A stretch of 64,000 nt of DNA from Calonectria ilicicola (Eukaryota; Ascomycota; Sordariomycetes; Hypocreales; Nectriaceae). The stretch spans positions 5,208,001 through 5,272,000 of the forward strand of contig CP085828.1 of the NCBI GenBank assembly GCA_020809705.1. The letters run 5' to 3'. Position 1 is the stretch's first letter. Each line of letters begins with the position of its first letter. The notes beneath the pieces were generated by a model. The model was not told where the DNA came from. It saw nothing but the letters and a program-made list of their open reading frames with translations, and made no database searches. Positions 14,253-18,866 of this stretch are shown piece by piece. The position numbers and the translations under genes were made by a program.

Positions 14253-14780
14253 TTAGTCTCGGCCATTGGGGCGATTGGCAAGCTTGGCTACAGCTTTCCC
14301 AACCTCAACGGCACCTTCCCCAACAGCTTCTGTCGCTTCCACAAGGTCCTTGTAATATGTAGACAAGTCGGCATATCCATAAATCTTGGCAATATTATCA
14401 TTGCGCTTCTGCACTGGGCCGAGTTTCTTGTTCTTGTTCTTGTTATACCAATCGATCACAGCATCCTCAAAAGTACGGGGTGCAGCGTCGTCCCCATTGT
14501 CATCGTCAGACTGACGCTTTTGTAATAGACTAGCTGTAGCATACTCTTCCAAGAGCGCGTCTATGTCCTTGTCTCCGAAAACAATAACCGGGCGGCGGGG
14601 ACCATCTTCTTCGCGCTTCTTTAATAGACTAGTCGTCATATACTCTTCGAGAAGTGCATCAATATCCTTGTCGCCGAAAATTGGTATCGCACGACGCAAA
14701 TCATCGCCTTGGTTTAGAGCAGGCGCAGCAAGCACAACGCCAAGTAGGCTAAGGATGATGGGTGCGAAAATGGCCTTCAT
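14253..14780 (-). CDS. Secreted KEX2-processed repeat precursor, candidate RiPP (dikaritin-like) precursor
   Basis: A 175-aa single-exon protein. Residues 1-19 form a signal peptide (ending VVLAAP). RR at 29-30 precedes repeat 1 (AIPIFGDKDIDALLEEY, then MTTSLLKKR, residues 31-56). After a short acidic spacer, RR at 62-63 precedes repeat 2 (PVIVFGDKDIDALLEEY, then ATASLLQKR, residues 64-89). A further KR is at 125-126. Signal peptide plus dibasic-flanked repeats is the architecture of ustiloxin/phomopsin/asperipin-type precursors and of other KEX2-processed repeat proteins, in which Kex2 in the Golgi releases the repeats. The divergent neighbour is a UstYa-family oxidase, supporting the RiPP reading. 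Which residues form a mature core is not determined. The repeats have a Phe and a Tyr but no known YAIG- or YVIPID-type core. The C-terminal 50 residues form an unassigned tail. An alternative is a non-cyclised secreted peptide precursor. Confidence 0.8.
   Translation of the reverse strand: MKAIFAPIILSLLGVVLAAPALNQGDDLRRAIPIFGDKDIDALLEEYMTTSLLKKREEDGPRRPVIVFGDKDIDALLEEYATASLLQKRQSDDDNGDDAAPRTFEDAVIDWYNKNKNKKLGPVQKRNDNIAKIYGYADLSTYYKDLVEATEAVGEGAVEVGKAVAKLANRPNGRD
14514..14690 (-). repeat. Two tandem precursor repeats
   Basis: The coding repeats are at 14690-14613 and 14591-14514 (26 codons each). They share the 13-residue block FGDKDIDALLEEY plus a xTxSLL tail. Synonymous differences between copies indicate an old duplication kept under selection. 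Confidence 0.8.
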
Positions 14781-15516
14781 AATAACTGATTGGGATACGA
14801 TATTAAGAAAGAAATGAATGGTGGATTTTGGGCTTGAATTCCTTCGTTGGAGGCTTTGGAGTACGCCTTTTATATATGTTTTTTTCTTCCTATATGAAGC
14901 ATTTCCATCGTATTCCTATATGGTACAAAGACACTACACGACGATTCAATCACCTCTGAATAGTTCATCGCTCTTACGTTTTCGAAGCACAAACTCATTC
15001 TTCCAGTTAAGACATGTATGTAAAACAGGAGTCGGGCCGAAGAGATATCGCATCTCGTGAGAAACGAACCAATTGCCATCAAGCACAGAACTTTTTGCGA
15101 ACGTTTAAAAATCGGATATTTACTGATCCATTCTAAGCACACTTTGAGTGTAGCGAGATACATACGTGACATTAACTTTTGTCCTAGTAAAGTGGGTGAT
15201 GTGATAGGAAGACCGTTTAGATTACCCCCAGTGATATATTGTGACGTGATGAGTTTAGTGTGAGATTATTTGTGATTTATATGAAACTGTGATGAAAAGT
15301 CCGAATTTTAGTGTGAAATTGTCCAAATATTACAGTTTAAGGCAATGCAAACGGGGCTTGTAATTTATGAGCTTACCTTATCACAAATGTACGAGACATG
15401 ATAACAACGGGTATTTAGTCTTGGCCCAGAAACACAATATGCAGATGCAACCGTTCTTCCTTATCTTATTTTTATCATTTGCTCTGACGGTTTTTCAGGG
15501 CTCTCCCTAATCTATT
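14781..15516. other. Divergent promoter region between RiPP precursor and UstYa gene
   Basis: A 736-bp head-to-head promoter. No gene is seen. It would allow co-regulation of the pair. I did not find a clear regulator-binding palindrome. Confidence 0.5.
14867..14876 (-). promoter_or_regulatory. TATA box of the precursor gene
   Basis: On the minus strand TATATAAAAG lies about 87-96 bp upstream of the ATG at 14780. This is a strong TATA match at a typical distance and is consistent with a highly inducible small secreted gene. Confidence 0.55.
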
Positions 15517-16404
15517 ATGGCATTTTTCTCGGTTGTTGACGACTTGGATGCACAGTATAGCCCACTCCAAACAGATGGAGAGCGAAGCCATAAACACTGG
15601 GGCAGAAGATTGAATCTCTGTGCATGTCTGCTGGCACTCCAAGTGATAAATATTCTGGCTTGTCTTGGCGGGCTTGCTTTTCTTGACAAGTACGATGGCC
15701 ATCGTCATGCCCAACTTGATGACTGTAAGTAAGATCCACCAATTCCAGAAATATATGAGCGGCAAGTCTCATGGAATCAAGACCAACTGTTGCATCAGAT
15801 TAATAAGACCTGGGATTATAAAAATGGCACTCAATTCACGGTGGGGAGCTACGGAGAGAGCTGGGAAGATATGATAAAACGTATGTGAATATCACAATCA
15901 ATATAAACCATATTTGAGGAAGAGAACTAATTTAAATAGACCACGGGATTGTTAGTGTCACGGACAATTGGGCTGCACAGCACAGCCTTCTTCCTAGTGC
16001 CCCCGCTCCGGACACCCCTGGGGAACTAGTTTATCAAGTTGCCGTATTTCACAGCTTACACTGTTTGGTAAGTTTATCCACGTCAATAACTCGCTTCCCG
16101 AACCTTTTGTAATTGTTTTTATCTATACGTCTAGTATATAATCCGAGAGGAATTCCTGAGTTCTAACAAGGGCAAACAAGACGACCATGTTCATCATTGT
16201 CTGGATCATATACGTCACGCATTAATGTGCAGTGGCGATATTACGCTTGCGGCAATGGATCAAGAGCATCTTTTTGAAGCTGAGGCTAGTCGCGGGAATC
16301 ATCAATGCCGAGACTATAACAAAATTGTCCAGTGGACGAACAACCACACATGGAAAGGACTGCCAAAATGGCTTGAAATGCAAGGCTTGGGAAATCATGG
16401 TTAA
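15517..16404 (+). CDS. UstYa-family (DUF3328) membrane oxidase
   Basis: Members of this family catalyse oxidative cyclisation or hydroxylation of fungal RiPP and some NRPS peptides as secretory-pathway membrane enzymes. Exon 1 starts with a short cytoplasmic segment containing YSPL and then a TM helix (about residues 32-56). Later exons give WEDMIKHHGIVSVTDNWAAQ, then VFHSLHCL (HxxHC motif 1, about 16047-16064), then DDHVHHCLDHIRHALMC (HxxHC motif 2, about 16186-16220). It ends GLPKWLEMQGLGNHG. Both metal-binding HxxHC motifs are intact. Firm exons are up to 15880, 15940-16067 and 16135-16404. Intron 1 has two in-frame solutions: 15704-15748 (weak GTCATG donor, TTCCAG acceptor) or 15725-15781 (strong GTAAGT donor, CAAG acceptor). 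It is divergent from the KEX2-repeat precursor, which makes that the natural substrate. Confidence 0.88.
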
Positions 16405-17567: not shown

Positions 17568-18866
17568 ATGGCCGGATTCTACCGCCTCACCCTGTTGCTC
17601 ACCTCGGGTGTATTGTTGTCGACCTCCATCAAGTATGTTTGGCGCCATGTGATTGCAAGCACGAAAAAGGTCGCTAGTGCGCCGACGGAACCTACCGAAG
17701 CGGCCGAGTCGACGGACACATCCAGGACGAGAAAACCAACCGAGACAACCGAATCCCCCAATGTAACCGAGCCAACAAATGTAGCCGAAACAACTGAGAC
17801 AAAGCGGAAGAAGAAAGAGACGGGAACACGACCTAAAAGAAGCGAGACCAAAGAGCGAAAAGTTCTTACTCAGGACAGTAAATTGCCCCAGGTAGAGGAC
17901 CATATTCAAACCGTCCTCGGGCTCATCCACAGAGACACCTTGGGGACCACGATCGTGCGCGACCAGATTCTGCTTGATTACCGAGAGTTCAAACCAAAGT
18001 TTCTCAAAGGTCTAGGATCAGAGAGAAGGAAGACAAATCATGAAGCCTCATATGAAGAATTTACCTCGTTTGGAGAAGTGACTGGTGGAGGAGCAATTGT
18101 GGATGTTTCACCATTCACCGTGAACCGAGATCCAGCCGAACTCGCCCATCTTTCTATTGTCTCAGGAGTAACTATCATCATGAGCACTGGAGACTACATC
18201 GCAAGCTCAGTCACCGAGAACATAGATCTGGACCAACAAACTGTTAGCGATATCGCCGTCCGATACATTTACGAACTTGAGCATGGTGTAGGTGAAAGTG
18301 GCATTAAACCAGGCATCATTGGAGAAATTGGCGTTTCCCACCCGATCACGCCGGATGAGCGCAAGAACCTGGAAGCAGCAGCCATTGCATCTTTAGAAAC
18401 TGGCGTTCCCATCAGTATCCATCCTGGGTCTCACCCAAACTCTCCTATTGATATTGTCAATCTGCTCGTGCAATTGGGAGTCAACCCCAGCAAAATTATC
18501 ATGGGCCACATGGAATGCTGCATCCCCCCTGACGCATCTAAAACACGTTTCAAGCTCGCAAAGACAGGCGTTTACATGCAATTTGATGTGTTCGGAACCT
18601 CGCGGCTAACCTTTCGAGCCATGAATTCAGAAAAGGGACGTGCCAAACAAATCGCTGAACTTGTGAACAATGGATATGGTGACCGTATTTTGGTGTCGCA
18701 CGGATCGCAAGGAACAAGTTCAAAATCCTCCAAAAAAGCATCGAATGCGGTGGATTTCTTCCGAAGAATCGTGCCGCTCTTGATGGAGGGTGGTCTGTCA
18801 GGCGAGCAAGTCAATGCAATCATCGTCAGCAACCCAGCCAGAGCTCTAAGTGTACCAAGAAGATAG
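17568..18866 (+). CDS. Phosphotriesterase-fold amidohydrolase homologue with degenerate metal site
   Basis: A 432-aa intronless protein. Residues 1-20 are hydrophobic (signal peptide or anchor). Residues 36-100 are Thr/Glu/Lys/Arg-rich (TEPTEAAEST and similar), a stalk-like low-complexity segment. From about residue 114 it aligns with the phosphotriesterase family (TVLGLIHRDTLG, then GEIGVSHP, SIHPG, MGHMECC, ILVSHG). In active members the first strand ends with HxH and the last has HD. Here these positions read RDQ (131-133) and HG (378-379), while Glu253, His285 and His314 are kept. Two His and one Asp ligand therefore appear lost, suggesting a pseudoenzyme or altered chemistry. The stretch is otherwise well conserved and uninterrupted. 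It lies beside the RiPP pair on plus. Its role is unknown. Confidence 0.72.
   Translation: MAGFYRLTLLLTSGVLLSTSIKYVWRHVIASTKKVASAPTEPTEAAESTDTSRTRKPTETTESPNVTEPTNVAETTETKRKKKETGTRPKRSETKERKVLTQDSKLPQVEDHIQTVLGLIHRDTLGTTIVRDQILLDYREFKPKFLKGLGSERRKTNHEASYEEFTSFGEVTGGGAIVDVSPFTVNRDPAELAHLSIVSGVTIIMSTGDYIASSVTENIDLDQQTVSDIAVRYIYELEHGVGESGIKPGIIGEIGVSHPITPDERKNLEAAAIASLETGVPISIHPGSHPNSPIDIVNLLVQLGVNPSKIIMGHMECCIPPDASKTRFKLAKTGVYMQFDVFGTSRLTFRAMNSEKGRAKQIAELVNNGYGDRILVSHGSQGTSSKSSKKASNAVDFFRRIVPLLMEGGLSGEQVNAIIVSNPARALSVPRR

Follow-up and report, generated by a model that had tools for sequence, protein, structure and literature searches.

Does a gene for a secreted, Kex2-processed repeat protein that stands head-to-head with the gene for a UstYa (DUF3328) oxidase form a unit that makes a modified peptide, or do the two genes merely adjoin? 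We addressed this question for one such pair from Calonectria ilicicola, located in a 64,000-nucleotide stretch of DNA (the window), which a sequence-only reading had put forward as an undescribed dikaritin-type locus yielding a modified cyclic peptide. The kind of locus, a Kex2-repeat precursor together with DUF3328, is known and common in fungi: 1647 of 5372 Kex2-repeat proteins of ascomycetes have a DUF3328 gene among their 15 closest genes, and the counts of DUF3328 genes are highest at the position adjoining the precursor gene (PMC7329392). According to the same survey, Tyr is present in 65.6% of the repeated sequences, and homologues are lacking for 2560 of the 7878 precursors (PMC7329392). 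The pair described here is one more orphan precursor with its oxidase.

The precursor and its repeated core

The precursor gene (14253..14780, minus strand) is a single open reading frame of 175 codons plus stop, with no intron. The N-terminus of the protein is hydrophobic by a simple hydropathy measure (3.07 on the Kyte-Doolittle scale over 9 residues), and we place a predicted signal peptide at residues 1-19 (MKAIFAPIILSLLGVVLAA; 14724..14780, minus strand), the cleavage site being set by eye. By the hydropathy of its h-region, the precursor has the ER signal of a dikaritin-type locus. Dibasic sites follow at RR29-30, KKR54-56, RR62-63, QKR87-89, 118-119 and QKR124-126. They delimit two repeat units of 23 residues each: unit 1 (residues 31-53, AIPIFGDKDIDALLEEYMTTSLL; 14622..14690, minus strand) is flanked by RR and KKR, and unit 2 (residues 64-86, PVIVFGDKDIDALLEEYATASLL; 14523..14591, minus strand) by RR and QKR. 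The frame, its hydropathy and the dibasic sites confirm the 175-residue secreted precursor with two bounded repeats that the sequence-only reading had described. Behind the last KR lies a C-terminal peptide of 49 residues (residues 127-175; 14256..14402, minus strand) with the Tyr-rich stretch IYGYADLSTYY; this tail holds four of the seven Tyr residues of the precursor and is possibly a third, non-repeated product or a follower.

Read directly off its sequence, the precursor displays the features used by Umemura for Kex2-repeat proteins: it has a signal peptide, its repeats reach the required length of 8 residues or more, and no stretch between sites is longer than 100 residues. Its two repeats fall below the minimum of three given in the excerpted text of Le Marquer et al. 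(PMC6339444).

Within the units lies a core, FGDKDIDALLEEY, present as copy 1 (14640..14678, minus strand) and copy 2 (14541..14579, minus strand). The precursor thus has repeated cores between RR and KR sites, in two copies only, with 13 of 13 residues identical. Comparison of the copies codon by codon shows that 7 of the 13 codons differ, all of them synonymously (pS 0.98, pN 0.03, where the one non-synonymous step behind pN results from averaging over paths at a Leu codon that changed in two bases). Outside the core the units vary in amino acids (AIPI versus PVIV, MTT versus ATA); the variation directly after EEY (MTT in one copy, ATA in the other) adjoins a fixed stretch before it. Since more than half of the codons have changed and every change is silent, selection, as judged from the codons, maintains the core at the protein level, and the core can be attributed neither to a recent duplication nor to an accidental reading frame.

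The precursor appears to be new, and no relative of it came up in another species. Pfam yields nothing for it at E≤0.1, and NCBIfam one match, far below the cut-off. Against 5.8 billion proteins, the whole precursor has no relative at E≤1 among 586 candidates and the repeat region (residues 22-95) none at E≤10 among 88 candidates, in a search that works via shared 5-residue words and that diverged relatives would escape. Within its own genome the precursor finds only itself below E 1; two more matches have E values of 1.9 and 3.8. A genome-wide search for the MF_alpha pheromone gave no match, its controls being equally silent. The letters of the core do not occur in the texts of 5.39 million papers searched, though an earlier automatic listing in a supplementary table is possible. 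The term 'undescribed' therefore suits the precursor and its core, which are absent from the protein and text searches, and does not suit the kind of locus, which is common.

The UstYa gene and its neighbourhood

Across a divergent promoter region of 736 bp (14781..15516, unstranded), which from the geometry would be common to both genes, the precursor gene faces the UstYa gene (15517..16404, plus strand). Its predicted 234-residue product matches PF11807 with 73.6 bits (E 2.8e-20, cut-off 25). In our gene model, the ATG at 15517 is followed by four exons (15517-15724, 15782-15880, 15940-16067 and 16135-16404) and three introns, of which introns 2 and 3 were placed by eye and intron 1 has several formal solutions. 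Because the intron-1 variants score nearly equally against PF11807 (72.0 to 75.5 bits), the score cannot choose between them. We prefer an intron of 57 nt, since exon lengths of 208, 99 and 128 nt then equal those of a sister gene on contig 11 (see below), and this comparison led us to discard the shorter alternatives of 42 and 45 nt. The splice sites of the sister gene were also placed largely by eye, which makes the two gene models a mutual fit and no independent proof.

For UstYa, the query in the protein and genome searches was the 239-residue variant with the 42-nt first intron. The closest match in the protein search was Penicillium herquei N7540_000257 (E 9.8e-37), the only hit among 211 candidates. 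Against solved structures, UstYa gave a single match at E 0.32, which is not meaningful. The P. herquei gene model does not contain exon 2, by either an annotation error or real exon skipping. Exon 2 measures 99 nt in both C. ilicicola paralogues, and the reading frame is kept if it is skipped; skipping as the normal form of UstYa was nevertheless rejected, because both the sequence and the length of the exon are conserved in the two paralogues.

UstYa has one N-terminal membrane helix by hydropathy (residues 38-56, LLALQVINILACLGGLAFL; 15628..15684, plus strand), with four Lys or Arg in the preceding 15 residues and two in the following 13. As the N-terminal flank is the more basic one, the catalytic domain would be lumenal, which suggests that it shares a compartment with the secreted precursor. 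Both HxxHC motifs expected of the DUF3328/UstYa protein of a dikaritin locus are present, HSLHC at 16050..16064 and HVHHC at 16186..16200 (plus strand). The head-to-head gene for a membrane-anchored DUF3328 protein with these two motifs, as first read from the letters, is upheld by the PF11807 score and the single helix.

We found no tyrosinase (PF00264) in the window, so that a component of the 2015 dikaritin definition is missing from it; the genome has 74 exon matches to this family, spread over many places, a set that seems unusually rich for one fungus. The kexin-type domain PF01483 has two matches in the genome. A Pfam scan of the other window frames, covering 18 frames of at least 150 residues and two shorter ones (introns can hide genes from such a scan), identified a carboxylesterase and a phosphotriesterase homologue beside the pair, and no transporter, reductase, methyltransferase or peptidase in the scanned frames adjoining it. 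A short-chain dehydrogenase frame comes no nearer than 22.3 kb. At 4.8-5.1 kb an MFS-like frame reaches 25.4 bits, under the cut-off of 33.4, and an MFS gene above the cut-off is located at 53.0-54.8 kb. A larger cluster including the carboxylesterase or the phosphotriesterase homologue was rejected, since neither finds a match at the sister locus; the membership of the latter is also disfavoured by a genome search in which, at E≤0.001, it found no protein but itself.

The phosphotriesterase-family protein (17568-18866, plus strand) has an N-terminal hydrophobic stretch. Compared with PDB 9efa, Gly replaces the last Asp ligand in a part aligned with 120.8 bits, and RDQ stands in place of the HxH ligands in another part, which aligns weakly (4.2 bits); the protein is perhaps a pseudoenzyme.

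A sister pair on contig 11

PF11807 has nine exon matches at six places in the 69.9-Mb genome. With one script we scanned for repeat precursors in the window, in 20 kb around each of the five other UstYa places and in ten 10-kb control stretches, 264 kb altogether; the script sees uninterrupted frames only and would miss intron-bearing or single-core precursors. It listed 13 frames, two of which we judged to be real Kex2-repeat precursors, one in the window and one on contig 11. The others, sorted by eye, comprise one frame antisense to the sister precursor, one of low complexity, one resembling WD repeats and eight with scores of at most 41. No credible Kex2-repeat precursor was seen, again by eye, in the ten control stretches (100 kb).

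The sister precursor (contig 11, 1777861-1778538, minus strand) has 225 residues and seven units. Divergent from it across 913 bp is the sister UstYa gene, located by genome search (contig 11, 1779452 to about 1780360). This protein is the best genome match of the window UstYa besides itself, and the two are mutually closest, with 140 of 234 aligned residues identical (60%; 91 of 131 in the C-terminal part), pS 0.78 against pN 0.24, and saturated dS. An adjacent divergent Kex2-repeat precursor is thus found at two of the six UstYa places. Since the scan saw none at the other four, UstYa proteins may act on other things. The synteny in relatives that the first proposal calls for is matched, within the same genome, by this paralogous pair.

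The P. herquei protein is equidistant from both paralogues (73 of 125 identical residues each in the C-terminal part), which suggests that the duplication is younger than the split from the P. herquei lineage, an order that is read from three sequences without a tree. In the 20 kb of the sister locus, window frames of at least 40 residues match the UstYa gene only (tblastn, E≤1e-3); at other UstYa places, the same search gave, apart from matches to the UstYa family, only those of 29 and 38 residues near 16.8-17.0 kb of the window and the MFS-like match at 4.8-5.1 kb. The two promoter regions (736 and 913 bp) have no 10-mer in common on either strand. The simplest reading is that precursor and oxidase were duplicated jointly and kept together, the precursors being too diverged to prove it.

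In two other places, on contig 11 near 1509962 and on contig 12 near 1187195, there are UstYa fragments around HHLHC that are nearly identical over 40 residues and look like a recent duplication.

The two precursors compared

With an E of 0.051 in plain BLASTP, the window and sister precursors are not clearly homologous. They have in common the spacing of their units (KR, a short spacer with acidic residues, RR), which occurs once in the window precursor and repeatedly in the sister, and an IxGDK[DE] element. When the window unit was shuffled, 3 of 600 shuffles reached the best score of this element and 1 of 600 the summed score; as the element was noticed before being tested, its presence in both precursors is suggestive only.

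The sister precursor contains neither Tyr nor Trp, and Phe is present in three of its seven units. Judging by these compositions, the sister precursor cannot form a Tyr ether within itself, and Tyr chemistry cannot serve both. Either the chemistries of the two pairs differ, or the chemistry is independent of Tyr, or one of the enzymes does something else. The composition of the sister precursor weighs against assuming Tyr-ether chemistry for the window.

Discussion

The window pair has parts of several described systems. Like the loci of ustiloxin and phomopsin, it joins an ER-targeted Kex2-repeat precursor to a DUF3328 oxidase, and an acidic pair precedes the Tyr of its core (EEY; the published motif is EDYXI, PMC6339444). 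It differs from them in having no tyrosinase match in the window, no methyltransferase or peptidase in the scanned frames, two repeats only and no Ile after the Tyr, the crosslink of ustiloxin and phomopsin joining Tyr to Ile (PMC9233826, in the part available). The asperipin-2a locus (aprA, aprY, aprT, aprR) is alike in combining a precursor with a single UstYa homologue, no tyrosinase being named among its four genes in PMC6514808, where the crosslinks are described as running from Tyr side chains to beta-carbons. No transporter or isoflavone-reductase-like gene was found adjoining the window pair, and its core is different, with one Tyr per copy. The victorin precursor also has multiple cores and is thought to be processed by Kex2, and its cyclisation, of Phe to Leu, does not require Tyr (passages of PMC9233826). 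The Kex2-repeat proteins with nearby DUF3328 genes collected by Umemura in 2020 (PMC7329392) consist of the same two elements as the window pair, whose core is absent from the paper texts searched. Where the 2015 definition of dikaritins includes a tyrosinase, and a methyltransferase, transporter or peptidase in the cluster, a DUF3328 protein alone suffices under a later one, and such proteins are also credited with hydroxylation and chlorination (both from the excerpt of PMC12048977). The dikaritin-type claim stands in so far as the pair is real, its core is under selection and the pairing recurs; it is weakened by the window having no tyrosinase and the sister precursor no Tyr or Trp. The first reading is right as to the kind of locus, and a cyclic or Tyr-crosslinked product, drawn from analogy, is putative. 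What the present analysis adds is the sister pair, selection on the core, the gene model and the Tyr- and Trp-free sister core.

We consider it probable that the window pair is a two-gene dikaritin-like RiPP module that has been kept through duplication. The main rival view sees in the precursor an ordinary Kex2-processed repeat protein which releases linear, unmodified peptides as signals, structural components or effectors, with UstYa acting on another substrate or being a chance neighbour. In fungi, 6120 of 7878 Kex2-repeat proteins have no DUF3328 gene among their 15 closest genes (PMC7329392), and one paper sets such proteins apart from RiPPs, as being unmodified after translation (PMC7099791); moreover, the 23 residues of the released unit exceed the 13 and 14 of the ustiloxin units (PMC6514808, available part), and four of the six UstYa places have no repeat precursor that the scan could see. 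Against this, within the 264 kb scanned the divergent layout is repeated at one other site only, that of the closest UstYa paralogue; where an ascomycete genome has about five Kex2-repeat precursors (PMC7329392), it seems very unlikely that two sister enzymes would each have come to adjoin one by chance. On balance, unmodified linear peptides are an unlikely account of the locus.

Should FGDKDIDALLEEY instead be a recognition element, the product would be the C-terminal peptide or the residues just after EEY, a proposal that agrees with the Tyr-rich tail, with the variable residues behind EEY following a fixed stretch, and with the related IxGDK[DE] element in the sister precursor, where the shuffles rarely reached the observed scores. 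The sister precursor, however, has no Tyr and hence no comparable tail, and the element was noticed before its test in a comparison of two precursors only, themselves related at no better than BLASTP E 0.051; we hold this proposal to be quite improbable. The product might instead resemble candidalysin, a helical peptide that acts on membranes and would form independently of UstYa. It would likewise start from a secreted precursor cut by Kex2, and the helical moments, 0.47 in the repeat peptides and 0.70 in the tail, point in this direction. The net charges (-4 for both repeat peptides and -2 for the tail) are unlike those of cationic lytic peptides, and the recurring pairing of precursor and UstYa would be left unexplained, so that this origin is hardly credible.

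For the favoured two-gene module, we infer that the two genes were duplicated jointly, and picture the processing, the modification, the product and its activity along the following lines. Its signal peptide, as read from the sequence, would direct the precursor into the secretory pathway, where Kex2, by analogy with dikaritins, would cut it in the Golgi after the RR and KR sites that the sequence provides. Cleavage would free two 23-residue peptides with the common core, to be trimmed as in dikaritins. Anchored in the same membrane system, with both HxxHC motifs presumably lumenal, UstYa would oxidise the released or still joined core, and its family makes a side-chain crosslink or a hydroxylation the most likely outcome; purely by analogy, Tyr47/80 and Phe35/68 are plausible sites of reaction. 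Secretion of the modified peptide would follow.

A bolder proposal, and an unlikely one in our estimate, is that these enzymes belong to a UstYa group without Tyr chemistry, which recognises the short acidic IxGDK[DE] element common to two precursors that are otherwise unlike, and oxidises non-Tyr residues in Tyr-bearing as well as Tyr- and Trp-free cores. If true, it would reveal a new class of DUF3328 substrates and, within one genome, a natural experiment in enzyme-substrate divergence. Little is understood of what UstYa proteins recognise and of the residues that they oxidise, and here two sister enzymes each adjoin a precursor of their own. As one core bears Tyr and the other has neither Tyr nor Trp, the sister pairs allow it to be tested whether DUF3328 specificity lies in an aromatic residue, in the GDKD-like element or in neither, and the two-gene unit would be a small system for reconstitution.
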